A DNA stretch of 64,000 bases, taken from an uncultured Butyricicoccus sp. (GTDB taxonomy: Bacteria > Bacillota > Clostridia > Oscillospirales > Butyricicoccaceae). Numbering within the stretch: position 1 is the stretch's first letter; every line of letters begins with the position of its first letter. Below, piece by piece: positions 1,639 through 33,925 of the stretch. The DNA is taken from assembly GCF_944381005.1 (NCBI RefSeq), contig NZ_CALWJM010000007.1:1-64000 (forward strand), given 5' to 3'. A program made the translations under genes and the position numbers. The notes under the pieces were generated by a model that made no database searches, was not told the origin of the DNA, and saw only the letters and a program-made list of their open reading frames with translations.

Positions 1639-2772
1639 TTACAGAACCAATTCGTTCAAGATGAAATTACAAAGCCGTTCGGTTGCATCAGGGTGCGCAA
1701 TCGCGTGCATGGTTTCACGGACTGTGCGCAGGCGCTGCGGGCTTTTAAACAGGTGATACACCGCTTCATCGACCGGAAAAGTCTTGGTTACAAGGCAAGC
1801 CATGCCATTATTGAGCAAAAATTCAACATTGCGTTCCTCATGGCCGGGAATGGGGTTGACCAGAATCATAGGCAGATTTTTTGCAAGTGCTTCGGATACG
1901 GTCAAGCCGCCGGGCTTGGTGATAATGCAGTCCGCTGCACTCATCATTTCCTCTACATTGGTTACAAAACCATAGGGATATAAGGTGCATGGGCCGTGCA
2001 GTTGCTCCTTCATATTGAGCATCTCGGCATACTGTTTTTTGTTGTTGCCGCAGACGACCATGAGCTGAAATGGCATGTTGCAAAGTTCAAGCTGTTGGAT
2101 TAGTTTTTTGTTGTCCGAGTACCCCATACTGCCGCCCATCATCAGGATAGTGGGGCGGTCGAGCGCCAGTCCAAGCCGGTTGCGTGCCTCTTCGGGGGAG
2201 ATGGGCTGGTTGAATTTGGGGTGAATGGGGATGCCGAACGGCAAAATACGCGAAGCGGCGATTCCTTTTTTCAGTGCGCGATGGGTCAGCAGTTCACTTG
2301 CCGTGACGATAAATTCAATTCGGGGCACTTCCTCCCAGTAGGGGTGCAGGGTATAGTCGGTGATGATGCCGATGGCAGGTGCGGACAGCAGATAGCGCTT
2401 TTTCAGGTCGTCCACAAGCTGTGCGGCAAACACATGGGTGCACACAATCGCATCGGGGGCGAAGTCGTTGACCACGCGCGCAAACTTGGTGGCGCCCAGC
2501 GCGTTTACAATATTGATGATGGACATACGGGTTGAGAAGTAACCCGTGCCACGGTTTTCGGCCAGCAGATAGGCAAGCCGGTACAGTTCCTGAGTGTGTT
2601 TGGAGGTGAACAGGTATCCTTTATCAATCGTTTCCTTGACAATCTTGCTGATATAGGCGTATACATCCACCGTTTCGACAACGGCTCCTCGTTCGCGCAG
2701 CATGTCGGACACTGCTTTTGCCGTTGCATGGTGACCAAATCCCGCAGTCACCGATAAAATCATAACACGCAT
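1639..2772 (-). CDS. Diacylglycerol glycosyltransferase (MGDG synthase/UgtP family)
   Basis: A 377-residue GT-B fold enzyme of the monogalactosyldiacylglycerol synthase family, which adds hexose from a UDP-sugar to diacylglycerol at the inner membrane face, giving glycolipids and lipoteichoic acid anchors. The N-terminal loop GFGHHATAKA (11-20) is the family's acceptor-site signature. The C-terminal half carries the nucleotide-sugar site, with a GGLTVSEAL stretch and an NPIPGHEERN stretch. No signal peptide or membrane helix is seen, as expected for a peripheral enzyme. AAGGAG lies nine bases before the ATG. SpoVG is 75 bases upstream on the same strand with no obvious terminator, so the two may be co-transcribed. 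MurG is a distant relative but the HHATAKA motif favours the lipid enzyme. Confidence 0.88.
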   Translation of the reverse strand: MRVMILSVTAGFGHHATAKAVSDMLRERGAVVETVDVYAYISKIVKETIDKGYLFTSKHTQELYRLAYLLAENRGTGYFSTRMSIINIVNALGATKFARVVNDFAPDAIVCTHVFAAQLVDDLKKRYLLSAPAIGIITDYTLHPYWEEVPRIEFIVTASELLTHRALKKGIAASRILPFGIPIHPKFNQPISPEEARNRLGLALDRPTILMMGGSMGYSDNKKLIQQLELCNMPFQLMVVCGNNKKQYAEMLNMKEQLHGPCTLYPYGFVTNVEEMMSAADCIITKPGGLTVSEALAKNLPMILVNPIPGHEERNVEFLLNNGMACLVTKTFPVDEAVYHLFKSPQRLRTVRETMHAIAHPDATERLCNFILNELVL

Positions 2773-2847
2773 TGCATTATACTCCTTTGATGATTCAAAA
2801 CAATTTCTATTCTATCGCATCTTGGAGTCGGTTGCAAGCGACAAACT

Positions 2848-3120
2848 TCACGAAACTGCGTGTGGTTGGGTAAGTCTATGGTATTCTGCCAGTACCCGCC
2901 GTTCCAGTTCTTCGCGCACCAGCGGGCCGACCGGATGCACGATATCATGATAACGGCCATCCGGCGTGCGGCGAGCCGGCATAGCAAGGAACAGGTGGTC
3001 GTCGCCTGCAATGACTTTGATATCATGCACAGCAAACACACCGTCAAAGGTAACCGATACCAGTGCGCGCAGACGACCCTGCGCGGGAAAGCGTCGGAAT
3101 TTAATCTCGGTAATCTCCAT
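2848..3120 (-). CDS. spoVG: SpoVG, RNA-binding sporulation/septation regulator
   Basis: A 90-residue protein matching SpoVG, a small, widely conserved nucleic-acid-binding regulator affecting septation, cortex formation and surface structures in Firmicutes. It begins MEITEIKFRR and carries the family's core (VSVTFDGVFAVHDIKVI) followed by the AMPARR segment. The start at 3120 is supported by AAAGGAGA eight bases upstream; the frame is open 32 codons further up but without a ribosome binding site and with atypical composition. Divergent to murC, whose promoter falls in the shared intergenic stretch. I could not identify a convincing sigma-H promoter for it. Confidence 0.92.
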   Translation of the reverse strand: MEITEIKFRRFPAQGRLRALVSVTFDGVFAVHDIKVIAGDDHLFLAMPARRTPDGRYHDIVHPVGPLVREELERRVLAEYHRLTQPHAVS

Positions 3121-3174
3121 AAAAGCTGTCTCCTTTTCTTGTCTGAGTTTTGGTTGCCAGAATGATGTTCCTGC

Positions 3175-3203
3175 TTGATATTCTGCCTGCTTTCTCATAT
3201 AAT
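3175..3203 (+). promoter_or_regulatory. Promoter of murC
   Basis: TTGATA at 3175-3180 and TATAAT at 3198-3203 are separated by exactly 17 bases and lie 40 bases before the murC start codon. Confidence 0.7.
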
Positions 3204-3242
3204 AATACATAGACAAAATTTAATTTATTGGAGGCTATACGA

Positions 3243-4616
3243 ATGGAATTGTCCATCAAGCCCTATATTCAAAATAAAAAAACCATTCATCTGGTCGGTA
3301 TCGGCGGCGTGTCGATGAACTCATTGGGCGAATTGTTGCTCAGTATGGGTGTGCCGGTGACCGGTTCCGACCGCGCCCATTCAGCCGTGACCGAGCGGCT
3401 GGAACGCTTGGGAGCGGTGATTCACTATGCACATGAAGCGTCAAACGTCGATGGCGCGGCGCTGGTCATTCGCACAGCGGCGGTACATGACGATAACCCC
3501 GAAATTGCCCGCGCGCATGAGCTGGGAATACCGGTCATGGAACGTGCACAGGCTTGGGGATGCCTGATGACCGATTATAAGGACGTTATCTGCCTGTCGG
3601 GTACACACGGCAAAACCACGACCACTTCTATGATGACGCTGATTGCCATGCAAGCGGCGCTTGACCCGACAGTTATGGTGGGCAGCAATTTGCCTGCGAT
3701 TGGTGGTACTCTGCGCATCGGGGGGCACGGCTGCTTTGTGGCCGAATCGTGTGAGTATTGCAACTCGTTTTTGTCGTTTGCTCCCACCATTGCGGTCGTG
3801 CTCAATGTCGAGGCCGACCACTTGGACTTCTTTAAAGATTTGGATGATATCATCCATTCGTTCCATGAATTTTGCCTGCTGACGCCGGAAAATGGATTGG
3901 TTGTTGTCAATGGCGATGATGAACACGCGCTCAAGGCCGTTGAGGGCGTGGAACGCAAGGTTTTGCGCTTTGGCGAATCGGAAGGCTGCAATGTTCGCCC
4001 GCAAAATATTACGGTCGATAACGGCTATTATCGGTTTGATGTTGAAGTGGATGGGCAATTCTATGCACATGTGGAATTATCGGTACCCGGACGGCATAAT
4101 ATGATGAATGCACTGGCTTGTTGTGCAGCTTCCTGGTTCCTTCATGTACCCGGACAACAGGCCGCCGCAGGGCTGAACCAGTTCAAGGGTTCGTCGCGCC
4201 GGTTTGAACTGACCGGCCGCATGGCAAGCGGAGCGCTGGTGGTAGACGATTACGCCCACCATCCCTCTGAAATGCGTGCGACACTGGATACCGCGCGGCA
4301 GATGAATTTTAAGCGCATTTTCTGTGCCTTCCAGCCGCACACCTACACGCGCACCAAGGCATTGTTTGATGAATTTGTGCAGGCGCTCAAGCTGTGCGAC
4401 CAAGCTGTTTTGGCACCTATTTATGCGGCACGCGAACAAAACACGATTGGGATTTACGCTTCGGATTTGGCAAAAGAAATTCCGGGAGCGCGTAGCTTTG
4501 AATCGTTCGAGCAGATTGCCGACTATTTGCGAAGCGAAGCAAAAGAAGGAGATTTGGTTCTGACGATGGGAGCCGGCGACATCTATCGCGTGGGAAAAAT
4601 GTTGATAGAATCATAA
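3243..4616 (+). CDS. murC: UDP-N-acetylmuramate-L-alanine ligase
   Basis: A 457-residue Mur ligase that couples L-alanine to UDP-MurNAc with ATP in the cytoplasmic stage of peptidoglycan synthesis. Seen: the N-terminal Rossmann motif HLVGIGGVSM (16-25), the P-loop SGTHGKTTTT (119-128), the central ESCEY segment, and the C-terminal VDDYAHHPSE motif shared by MurC enzymes. The length is normal. The start at 3243 has GGAGG eight bases upstream; a TTG five codons earlier overlaps that site and is rejected. It has its own promoter and is followed by a hairpin at 4640. It stands alone rather than in a dcw cluster. Confidence 0.97.
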   Translation: MELSIKPYIQNKKTIHLVGIGGVSMNSLGELLLSMGVPVTGSDRAHSAVTERLERLGAVIHYAHEASNVDGAALVIRTAAVHDDNPEIARAHELGIPVMERAQAWGCLMTDYKDVICLSGTHGKTTTTSMMTLIAMQAALDPTVMVGSNLPAIGGTLRIGGHGCFVAESCEYCNSFLSFAPTIAVVLNVEADHLDFFKDLDDIIHSFHEFCLLTPENGLVVVNGDDEHALKAVEGVERKVLRFGESEGCNVRPQNITVDNGYYRFDVEVDGQFYAHVELSVPGRHNMMNALACCAASWFLHVPGQQAAAGLNQFKGSSRRFELTGRMASGALVVDDYAHHPSEMRATLDTARQMNFKRIFCAFQPHTYTRTKALFDEFVQALKLCDQAVLAPIYAAREQNTIGIYASDLAKEIPGARSFESFEQIADYLRSEAKEGDLVLTMGAGDIYRVGKMLIES

Positions 4617-30152: not shown

Positions 30153-30194
30153 AAAATACCGTATACCAATGCGACGAACAGGGAGGAAGAGCGG

Positions 30195-31817
30195 ATGCAA
30201 AACCGTCTGACCGTAACCATCGCAGGCCAGAAATTTTCGCTGGTCGCGGATGAATCCGAAGCATATATGAAAGAGATTGCGGCCTTGGCCGATAGAAAAA
30301 TTGAAGAAGCAAAAAAACTGGTGGGCAACACCGCATTTTCTACCGGTGTACTTGCCACGCTCAACATGGCAGACGAGGCGGTAAAACTGCGGCATCAGTG
30401 TGAGGACTATCGCAAGAAATCCAAAGCCCAGCAGCAAGAAATTACACGGCAAAAGGATGAACTGAAACAGATAAAGGAAGAACTGGACACCATGCGCTGT
30501 GCCCGGCCGGACGAAGACCCGGCGGTTTTGCTGGCTGAAATCAAACGGCTAGAAAAAGAACTGGAGGAAGTGCGCGGGCTGCATGATACGGTGTGTGCCG
30601 AATCGGATGCAGAGATGGCGCGGCTCAATGCGCAAATAGAAGAACTCAATCAAACCTATCAGCAAGCGCAGACCAAATTGTCCGAGGTCAAGCCGCTGGA
30701 AGATAAGGTCCAGGCGTTGACCCGGCAAGCCGAAGAATTGCGCGAGGCACTCAAGCGCGCCCATGAAGAAAAAAAAGCTGCTGTACATGAGCAGGAAAAT
30801 TCTTTACAAAGCGAAATCGACCAACTCAATGCCGCGCTGGATGCGCTGCATGTGCAGGAGTCGGCCAAAACCGCGCAGGCACAGCAGAAAATTCAGAATT
30901 TGGAGCGGGAAGTAAAGGAACTGCGCACGACGCGCGTAGACCCCGAACCGCTTTATGCAGAGATTAAAAATCTTCAGACCGCGCTTGATGCGAAAGAAGA
31001 ACAGGTCAGCGAGAATATAGAGTTAAAAGCCCAAGTGGAGGATTTAAAAAAGCAGATTGAACAGTTAGACCCCGCACCGCTGCATGCAAAGATTGAGCGC
31101 TTGCAAAAAGAAGTGGACGAGGGCGAAAAGACATTGGCCGAAAATGCCAAACTCAAGGTGCAGCTCGACGACCTCAAAGAGCGGTTAAAACGCAATGACC
31201 CGGCACCGCTGTATGCCGAAATTCGCCAGTTACAAGCCGCGCTCGACGAGCGCCGCAGTCAGGCAGAAGAAAACAATCGCTTGCGCGAGGAAATGCGTAA
31301 ATTGCGCGAATCGTACCACGATGTGCGCCCGGCGGTCGAGTATGACCAGCTCAGTCAGAAATTTGAGGAGGTCAACCGCGAACTGTCCAAGGCAAAAATT
31401 CAACTGGCGGGGCGTGAAATCGGAGAAATCGGAGAGCTACGCCGTGAGTTGACGCGCCTGCGCGAATTGGAACAGGAATATAACAATATGGAAGACCCCG
31501 AACCGCTACACAGTGAAATCGACCGCCTAGAGCAAGAATTGCGCCAGATGCGTTTGCAAAAGCAAGAGGCAGAGCAGCAGGCGGCACAAAAGGATGGTGC
31601 ACAGCAGCATCATAAGCAGGATTTGGAACAAATTGAGCAGCTCAAGCAGGAACTGGCACAGCTCAAACAGGCACAGGCGGCACAAGCTGCTCCGGCATCA
31701 GAGGAAGTCGAGACGCTGCGCGCCCAACTGAAACAGGTGAAAGCCGAACTGAACCGTCAAATCCAAATCAACCAGTCGCAGGAACAGCGGGGAAGAAAGA
31801 AGAAAGGCGGAAAGTAA
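30195..31817 (+). CDS. zapA: ZapA-type division protein with a long repeat-bearing coiled coil
   Basis: A 540-residue protein. The first ~95 residues match ZapA (RLTVTIAGQKFSLVADESEAYMKEIAALADRKI...), the small FtsZ-bundling protein that is normally about 80-130 residues. The remaining ~445 residues are heptad-rich coiled coil, highly charged and without signal peptide or membrane helix. Four consecutive 43-residue units start at residues 249, 292, 335 and 378; the first three open with DPxPL(Y/H)A(E/K)I and carry a Glu-Asn pair near position 25, and the fourth is diverged. Related openings occur at 108 and 434. A basic tail (RGRKKKGGK) ends the protein. The start at 30195 has GGGAGG. The U32 gene overlaps its stop by one base. 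It may act as a spacer or cross-linker at the Z-ring. Confidence 0.85.
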   Translation: MQNRLTVTIAGQKFSLVADESEAYMKEIAALADRKIEEAKKLVGNTAFSTGVLATLNMADEAVKLRHQCEDYRKKSKAQQQEITRQKDELKQIKEELDTMRCARPDEDPAVLLAEIKRLEKELEEVRGLHDTVCAESDAEMARLNAQIEELNQTYQQAQTKLSEVKPLEDKVQALTRQAEELREALKRAHEEKKAAVHEQENSLQSEIDQLNAALDALHVQESAKTAQAQQKIQNLEREVKELRTTRVDPEPLYAEIKNLQTALDAKEEQVSENIELKAQVEDLKKQIEQLDPAPLHAKIERLQKEVDEGEKTLAENAKLKVQLDDLKERLKRNDPAPLYAEIRQLQAALDERRSQAEENNRLREEMRKLRESYHDVRPAVEYDQLSQKFEEVNRELSKAKIQLAGREIGEIGELRRELTRLRELEQEYNNMEDPEPLHSEIDRLEQELRQMRLQKQEAEQQAAQKDGAQQHHKQDLEQIEQLKQELAQLKQAQAAQAAPASEEVETLRAQLKQVKAELNRQIQINQSQEQRGRKKKGGK

Positions 31818-33925
31818 TGCCCGAATTATTGGCACCAGCCGGTTCATTTGAGGGTGTGCGCGCGGCTGTACAGAGCGGCGCGAATGCAGTTTACATGGGC
31901 TTTGGCACGTTTAATGCCCGGCGCGGTGCAAAAAATTTTTCACGCAAGGAAATGGCACAAGCTATTGCCTATTGCCGCACACGCGGCGTAAAAACCAACA
32001 TTACATTTAATATTGTGGCGCTTGACCGTGAACTAGAGCAGGCCATGCAGGATGTTCAGTTTTTATATCAAGCGGGAGCCGATGCGCTGATTGTGCAGGA
32101 TTTGGGGTTAGCGCGGCTGATTCGGGAACATGCGCCCCAAATAGAATTACATGCGTCTACCCAGATGACCATTCACACGCTGGATGGTGCGCGTGCAGCA
32201 AAAGAACTGGGATTTTCCCGCGTGGTACTGTCGCGCGAGTGTACGCTGGACGAGATTGAAAAGATTACACGCGAAGCCGGTGTGGAAACCGAAGTGTTTG
32301 TACACGGCGCACTGTGCATGTGTTATTCCGGACAGTGCTATATGTCCTCAGTTATCGGTCAGCGTTCGGGCAACCGCGGTCTGTGTGCGCAGCCTTGCCG
32401 CTTGCCCTACACCTATGCGGACGGCAAAAAAGGATATCCGCTGTCGCTCAAAGATTTGTGTGCAGCCAAATGGATTCCTACCCTTACAAAAATGGGTGTG
32501 ACTTCGTTTAAGATTGAAGGGCGCATGAAGCGACCGGAATACAGCGCGGTCGTGACCAAGATTTATGCCGATTTGCTGCGCGAGCAGCGCGGCCCGACCA
32601 AAGAAGAAAATGAAACATTGCGCAAGGTGTTTTCGCGTGATGGCTTTACCGACGGCTATTTGACCGGTCATGTAGATGAAAAAATGTTTGGAACCAAGAC
32701 CGACTTGCCCATGCAGGAGGTCAAGCCGCTTTATGATGAAGCGGCGCGCCGGTTTGCGGAGGGCAAGGAGGCGCCTTTGGTACCTGTCGAGATAAGCTGT
32801 ACGGTCACGCCGGAGGGAATTTCGGTGCAAGCCTGTGATATGTTCGGGCATGGAGCGCAGGCGGCTGACCATGAACCGGTCGAGCGGGCGAACAACCGAC
32901 CGACAACCCGTGAAATGCTGGTAAAGAATCTGATAAAAACCGGTGGCACACCGTTTTTTGTGCGCGATGTCGAGCGGGATGTACAAATTGAACTGCCAGA
33001 AGGGTATATGGTTCCGGCATCCCGCATCAATGCCCTGCGGCGTACAGCACTCAATACCATTGAAAAACTGCGCGGCATACCGCCCAAGCGCAATTGGATA
33101 CCGTATCAAAATTCACACAATCGTCACGCAAATGTCGCATTTCAGGGGTATACTTTAGAGATACGCAAGTTGGAGCAACTCACACAGGAGATGCAGCAAA
33201 AGCCGCCGTGTATGGTGTATGTGCCGCTGACCGAACTGGACGCACATCCACAGGCTGTGCATGATTTGTGTGCGCGTGACATACCGCTGGCGGTACAAAT
33301 GCCGCGTATCTACACCGATGCCGAACAGCCTGAAATTGAGCGGATGTTGAAAACGGCATGGGAAAATGGCGTGCGCACGGCGTGCGCCATGAATTTGGGA
33401 CAATTGCCGCTGCTCAAACGCTTGGGCTTTGTGATTCATGGCGGGTTTGGGCTGAATGTGTGCAATGGTGCAGCACTGGACGCACTTGCAGCACTTGGTG
33501 TGCGCCGCCAGACTCTGTCGTTTGAGTTGCGCACGGCGCAATTGCGCGACGTAGACAAGCCGATAGAGACCGAATTGTTGGTTTATGGTTATCTGCCACT
33601 GATGGTTTTTGAAAACTGCGCCATTCGTCGGCGTACCGGTCAATGCACCTGTCAAAAAGGAATTACCACACTGACCGACCGCAAAGGGCAAACCTTTGGG
33701 CTGCTGCCTGAATTTGGGTGCCGCAACACACTTTTGAACAGTAAGCCGCTCTATCTGGCAGATAAGGATGATTGGAAACAGGTAGGCGCACCGTTCGGGC
33801 GCATCTGCCTGACGACCGAATCACCCGAACGGGCACAGGCGGTCTGGCGTGCATATACCGAGCAAATGCCGCTGGAATTTTGCGATGGATTTACACGCGG
33901 CCTATACCAGCGCGGTGTAGAATAA
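31817..33925 (+). CDS. Peptidase U32 family protein (RlhA/TrhP-like)
   Basis: A 702-residue U32 protein. The N-terminal TIM barrel (about 1-330) has PELLAPAGSFEGVRAAVQSGANAVYMG, the HASTQMTIH segment, and the cysteine-bearing GALCMCYSGQCYMSS and GLCAQPCRLPY stretches that bind an iron-sulfur cluster in related enzymes; a C-terminal collagenase-like domain adds more cysteines (CAIRRRTGQCTC). Despite the name, well-studied relatives hydroxylate 23S rRNA (RlhA) or tRNA uridine (TrhP). Its ATG overlaps the zapA stop (TAATG), and maf follows after 41 bases. An RNA-modification role is inference from homologues. Confidence 0.9.
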   Translation: MPELLAPAGSFEGVRAAVQSGANAVYMGFGTFNARRGAKNFSRKEMAQAIAYCRTRGVKTNITFNIVALDRELEQAMQDVQFLYQAGADALIVQDLGLARLIREHAPQIELHASTQMTIHTLDGARAAKELGFSRVVLSRECTLDEIEKITREAGVETEVFVHGALCMCYSGQCYMSSVIGQRSGNRGLCAQPCRLPYTYADGKKGYPLSLKDLCAAKWIPTLTKMGVTSFKIEGRMKRPEYSAVVTKIYADLLREQRGPTKEENETLRKVFSRDGFTDGYLTGHVDEKMFGTKTDLPMQEVKPLYDEAARRFAEGKEAPLVPVEISCTVTPEGISVQACDMFGHGAQAADHEPVERANNRPTTREMLVKNLIKTGGTPFFVRDVERDVQIELPEGYMVPASRINALRRTALNTIEKLRGIPPKRNWIPYQNSHNRHANVAFQGYTLEIRKLEQLTQEMQQKPPCMVYVPLTELDAHPQAVHDLCARDIPLAVQMPRIYTDAEQPEIERMLKTAWENGVRTACAMNLGQLPLLKRLGFVIHGGFGLNVCNGAALDALAALGVRRQTLSFELRTAQLRDVDKPIETELLVYGYLPLMVFENCAIRRRTGQCTCQKGITTLTDRKGQTFGLLPEFGCRNTLLNSKPLYLADKDDWKQVGAPFGRICLTTESPERAQAVWRAYTEQMPLEFCDGFTRGLYQRGVE

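Follow-up and report, generated by a model that had tools for sequence, protein, structure and literature searches.

The locus studied here raises the question of why a ZapA, a protein hitherto viewed as a short and rigid cross-linker, should be drawn out to several hundred residues, and whether the tail so formed is in use. The gene, here called zapA-long, occupies 30195..31817 on the forward strand (as do all features given below) of the window, a stretch of 64,000 nucleotides from an uncultured Butyricicoccus sp., a gut bacterium whose genome comprises 2.17 Mb in 37 contigs, and its intact reading frame encodes 540 aa. In Klebsiella, the ZapA heads grip the N-terminal tail of FtsZ via Phe2, and this hook needs an FtsZ Phe that is Phe2 in Gram-negatives and lies at position 4 in Gram-positives (PMC12216130). 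The contacts between ZapA and the FtsZ tail in E. coli are consistent with the Klebsiella picture (PMC12754632), and bundling by E. coli ZapA requires tetramer formation through the coiled coil (PMC6917738). Among the matches listed in a literature search for ZapA with Butyricicoccus there were only microbiome and nutrition papers, none of them on a long ZapA.

The N-terminus had been assigned to ZapA from the sequence alone, and the Pfam profile PF05164 bears this out, matching residues 6-89 (30210..30461) with 46.9 bits (E 3.6e-12) against a curated cut-off of 23.8; by profile search, zapA-long is the sole ZapA in its genome. In alignment, its Asn57 falls on Asn60 of E. coli ZapA, a residue that contacts FtsZ; the other contact positions named in PMC12754632 (R16, N18, R44 and Q52) are not kept, neither here nor in the ordinary clostridial ZapAs of the same alignment. 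The FtsZ encoded in this genome begins MGFQFE, with a Phe near the start, an N-terminus recorded for genomes G000, G003 and G005. In a PDB search, plausible relatives of the domain were limited to ZapA (2mmv) and, weakly matched, the uncharacterised protein 3hnw; the eukaryotic matches AIP3, WTAP and BLOC1_2 were set aside as low-complexity coiled-coil matches. Compared with the ZapAs of E. coli and Klebsiella, zapA-long has the same N-terminal domain, the Asn that in E. coli contacts the FtsZ tail, a predicted coiled coil directly after the domain and an FtsZ with N-terminal Phe in its genome, but it is 540 rather than about 110 aa long, some five times the usual size, and its tail of about 440 residues contains proline joints and a 43-residue repeat. 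Judged from its sequence, the product is a genuine ZapA whose tail is an extension of the existing coiled coil. The sequence-only reading, which spoke of a ZapA fused to a coiled coil, was right about the head and the long tail and not about a fusion; "extended" is the fitter word, since the tail prolongs the coiled coil common to all ZapAs.

The start codon at 30195 is preceded by a good ribosome-binding site read from the sequence, GGGAGGA (30181..30187), and the stop codon overlaps the start of the next gene in a TAATG (31815..31819), the latter in agreement with the translational coupling proposed earlier. A like overlap, TAATG or TGATG, joins the two genes in the three other long-tailed species. 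The downstream neighbour (31817..33925) encodes a U32 peptidase-family protein with DUF3656 according to Pfam; it is followed by what we take to be a Maf-like protein, MreC-like and MreD-like frames and a penicillin-binding protein, and the divergent neighbour upstream is presumably a glutamate 5-kinase-like frame. A U32 gene also stands 3' of short zapA genes in the family, which indicates that the link between zapA and U32 is old and unconnected with the long tail, so that the coupling loses its standing as a special feature of this locus.

Six genomes of the genus were compared, one of which (G001) is uninformative for zapA; a loss of the gene there was considered and rejected, because the contig starts within the U32 gene and zapA is unassembled. 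The long form is present in four of the five readable genomes, window included, with translated lengths of 500 aa in Candidatus B. avicola, 552 aa in B. pullicaecorum DSM 23266 and 461 aa in a strain labelled B. pullicaecorum ET57, and the ZapA of the remaining congener (G004) has only 143 aa. D-P motifs stand at residues 108, 249, 292, 335 and 434 of zapA-long, which gives a spacing of 141-43-43-99 in the window and likewise in Candidatus B. avicola, where about 40 residues are missing near the end of ZapA. The spacing is 148-43-43-99 in DSM 23266, with an upstream insertion of exactly 7 residues (one heptad), and 56-82-99 in ET57, where the DPxPL motif and the interval of 99 are preserved and two 43-residue units are absent. 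The homologues were thus found neither to end near residue 120 nor to be devoid of the repeat, two outcomes that had been named as fatal to the first description: the long form prevails in the readable genomes, and the 43-43-99 spacing recurs in two further species. The gene is real, conserved in the genus and unusual, a lengthened member of a known family.

In self-comparison of the tail, a lag of 43 residues gives the strongest match, scoring 194, where the maxima of class-preserving shuffles, taken over all lags tested, are 118-129; the lag-43 scores in two other species are 208 and 218, against shuffle maxima of 96 and 99. The proposed repeat therefore stands for the units at residues 249-291 (30939..31067), 292-334 (31068..31196) and 335-377 (31197..31325), which have Glu-Asn at equal offset. 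The fourth unit proposed at residue 378 does not: residues 378-433 (31326..31493), with the conserved stretch GREIGEIGELRRELTRLR, hold no sequence copy of the unit, identity to the three window units being 9-19% and only P379 and a Tyr/Phe region recurring, although Pro379 is nevertheless invariant in all four long proteins. That 43 is a multiple of neither the heptad nor the hendecad is correct as arithmetic and fails as a sign of an odd period, since 43 = 3x7+2x11 (also 42+1); each joint probably restarts the heptad/hendecad register, and the period calls for no particular explanation.

The repeat units provide a measure of both age and constraint. Unit 1 has 65-67% identity to its counterpart in two species, unit 2 was delimited by the same lag and by cross-species comparison, and unit 3, where conservation of the tail is highest, reaches 84-86% when the window is set against the two species and 84-91% across all three (window, Candidatus B. 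avicola and DSM 23266), whereas identity among units inside one protein is 33-65%, and 37-42% among those of the window. Orthologous units being closer than paralogous ones, the duplication is older than the split of the three species, and a recent local duplication was rejected. Unit 3 even tops the ZapA domain itself (77-81% in the same window comparisons), so that it is under selection. At the two ends of the tail, the first DP motif DPAVLLAEIKRL (residues 108-119, 30516..30551) includes a DEDPA invariant in four species; the last one, DPEPLHSEIDRL (residues 434-445, 31494..31529), lies 99 residues past the preceding unit in four species; and the C-terminal helix with its basic end (residues 507-540, 31713..31814, ...AELNRQIQIN...KKKGGK) is 68-82% identical across four species, KKKGGK being invariant. 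The least conserved large blocks are residues 434-506 and 131-248, the latter with 37-60% identity and falling largely in a weakly constrained coil that is modelled as one long unbroken helix (residues 109-244, 30519..30926). Since unit 3, the joints and the C-terminus are conserved, the tail appears to be in use.

Two AlphaFold2 models, one of the full length (four sequences) and one of residues 224-440 (three sequences), were used for helix boundaries alone, their confidence (pLDDT 68-70, pTM 0.21 and 0.26) being too low to tell a rod from a folded-back bundle. In the full-length model, helix is predicted from residue 49 onward, and the helices of the tail span residues 109-244, 253-289, 293-333, 336-376, 379-430, 436-494 and 502-532. 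Both models interrupt the helix at or beside every DP, the helix after the first motif restarting at residue 109, and the model of residues 224-440 has an extra break near Gly310, a residue not common to the relatives. The sequence DPxP suits a helix N-cap, with Asp as N-cap and Pro at N1, and in the light of these low-confidence models the DPxP joints read as Pro-capped helix starts with Pro at N1 and N3. The proline-marked breaks at regular spacing that had been suggested are hence supported by the models as helix breaks, and by three species in the conservation of their spacing. The tail is rich in charge and prone to form helix, with the composition usual for coiled coils (E 16%, Q 12%, L 12%, G 1.9%). 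Clean heptad periodicity is found only in residues 108-248 (3.54) and 434-540 (3.50), and each repeat unit has a periodicity of 3.41-3.44, which leaves an ordinary two-stranded coil in the repeat region unproven.

The explanation we favour, to which we give about an even chance, is that zapA-long is a ZapA with a jointed tail of stiff helices, conserved joints and a basic C-terminus, which serves as a long-reach cross-linker or tether of FtsZ. The domain, the repeat, the joint motifs with their spacing and the C-terminus are features of the sequence itself; for the helical nature of the joints, oligomeric state, reach and FtsZ cross-linking we infer the following scheme. In the Butyricicoccus lineage, the coiled coil of ZapA would have been lengthened into stiff helices of about 136, 37, 41, 41, 52, 59 and 31 residues, linked by short Pro-capped joints, an old tandem duplication of the 43-residue helix unit having enlarged part of the tail. 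The N-terminal heads would form dimers and take hold of FtsZ by its N-terminal "hook", as ZapAs do elsewhere, and the jointed tail, as a dimer or a larger assembly, would cross-link or tether FtsZ filaments, reaching further and yielding more readily than the short, rigid tetramer of ZapA. With its helices in one line, the helical part would come to about 70 nm (484 residues at 0.15 nm each), every 43-residue unit contributing 6.4 nm, and the tail probably lets the protein extend further from the division ring. The basic conserved C-terminus would be the likeliest second contact, made in tail-tail assembly or with a partner. As a counterpoint to this long-reach reading, G004 and nearly all of the family have much shorter ZapAs, mostly of 85-180 aa.

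Its chief rival is that the basic C-terminus ties the Z-ring to a further partner, be it the nucleoid, the envelope or the elongation machinery, one protein thus doing the job that ZapA and ZapB or ZauP share in Proteobacteria; we regard this as possible but rather unlikely. ZapB and ZauP, as separate coiled-coil partners of ZapA, likewise place a long coiled coil beside a ZapA head, but in zapA-long the coil is covalent. The invariant KKKGGK end and the conserved final helix would suit such a tether, as would a genome in which SepF is present and neither ZapB nor EzrA has a match, and other long-tailed ZapAs of the order carry conserved end motifs of their own, e.g. EGFMSFFEK. In E. coli and Caulobacter, ZapA is known to be linked to the terminus through a partner (PMC7188993). 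However, about half of the ZapAs sampled also end basic (38 of 74 carry a net charge of at least +3 over their last 12 residues), which makes a basic end alone weak evidence. Five Butyricicoccus genomes gave no match to the ZapB profile PF06005 at E 0.001, but bacteria other than enterics normally lack ZapB.

How unusual a long ZapA is was judged from ZapAs elsewhere. Most ZapA frames have 85-180 aa, both among 87 genomes of the family and among 157 sampled from the order; elsewhere in the order ZapA has about 110 aa, and the median is 112 aa in a sample enriched for long forms, so that the length of about 100 residues ascribed to ZapA at the outset is typical rather than family-defining. Frame lengths as reported include the upstream open frame, and inspection struck off many seemingly long ZapAs: frames of 350-690 aa in several genomes of the phylum proved either to hold a short ZapA of 93-118 aa within a longer open frame or to have been opened upstream. 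True long forms, of 236-320 aa, occur in a sister genus (g10); one other family has them at 247-331 aa, and elsewhere they turn up singly (275 aa). Butyricicoccus has the extreme tail length among the genomes surveyed, the phylum being compared among the best-scoring matches listed. These proteins of other Clostridia (236-331 aa; G014, G088, G580 and others) likewise carry an elongated coiled tail behind a ZapA head, in some cases with repeats inside it, but they are shorter than the Butyricicoccus form, the DPxPL motif is in none of those examined, and their repeats are of 22 residues (2x11, G014) or 28 residues (4x7, G088), both above shuffled controls. Repeats of 22, 28 and 43 residues in separate lineages indicate that ZapA tails were lengthened by duplication more than once.

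Such unrelated long tails, together with total lengths of 461-552 aa within one genus and 143 aa in a congener, would fit a tail length that is mostly evolutionary drift, in which tails grow and shrink by in-phase tandem duplication almost without consequence and the DPxPL joints are by-products that the protein tolerates. Against drift, unit 3 and the C-terminus match or exceed the conservation of the ZapA domain and the joint spacing is identical in three species, and we regard drift, too, as possible but rather unlikely. A broader proposal, which we offer only tentatively, is that clostridial ZapA tails are fast-evolving built-in tethers, each arising by lineage-specific duplication of helix units and bearing its own docking motif, and that the Butyricicoccus chain, up to about 70 nm long and basic at its end, would link the Z-ring to a partner in one polypeptide, in place of a ZapB/ZauP-type protein.

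It is quite doubtful that the helices of 41 residues instead double back at each DP joint and pack into antiparallel bundles of the spectrin or EzrA kind, forming a compact body. The joints are short and the helix lengths near equal (37, 41, 41), and EzrA, the FtsZ regulator of Bacilli, is made of triple-helix repeats (PMC4243239); however, large hydrophobics make up only about a quarter of each 43-residue unit, few for a three-helix bundle. Long helical repeats and a putative action on FtsZ are common to both proteins, but zapA-long is built on a ZapA head, and the EzrA profile PF06160 has no match in the seven genomes searched. A precise molecular ruler, in which the unit fixes the distance between FtsZ filaments or from ring to partner as first suggested, is very improbable in spite of the conserved 43-43-99 spacing, because total length differs among all four long proteins, ET57 lacks two units, a congener is short-tailed, and flexible joints are ill suited to a ruler.

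If this lineage did make ZapA long and jointed, the natural variants of one genus (143, 461, 500, 540 and 552 aa) allow a direct test of the effect of cross-linker reach on Z-ring architecture. The tail length of ZapA is evolutionarily free, which bears on how the spacing of the Z-ring is set.

Some further observations concern ZapA in the order. A ZapA match is absent in 36 of the 157 order-sample genomes, several of them nearly complete (families f16, f19 and f20), and in these ZapA is either lost or highly diverged. The 320-aa ZapA of G014 (L039, complement of 2586-3548) has an Ala/Glu-rich, two-hendecad form of its 22-residue repeat, its congeners having about 236 aa, and represents an independent expansion. 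Genus g324 (family f25; L067, L071 and L074) has coiled-tail ZapAs of 247-331 aa with a lineage-specific end, QM(T/R)IC or QMTL. In family f23 (L069, L072, L075, L076, L080 and L081), a Pro/Ala-rich or charged linker leads to a conserved end, (E)EGFMSFFEK or a variant of it, which by its sequence resembles a docking peptide for some partner.
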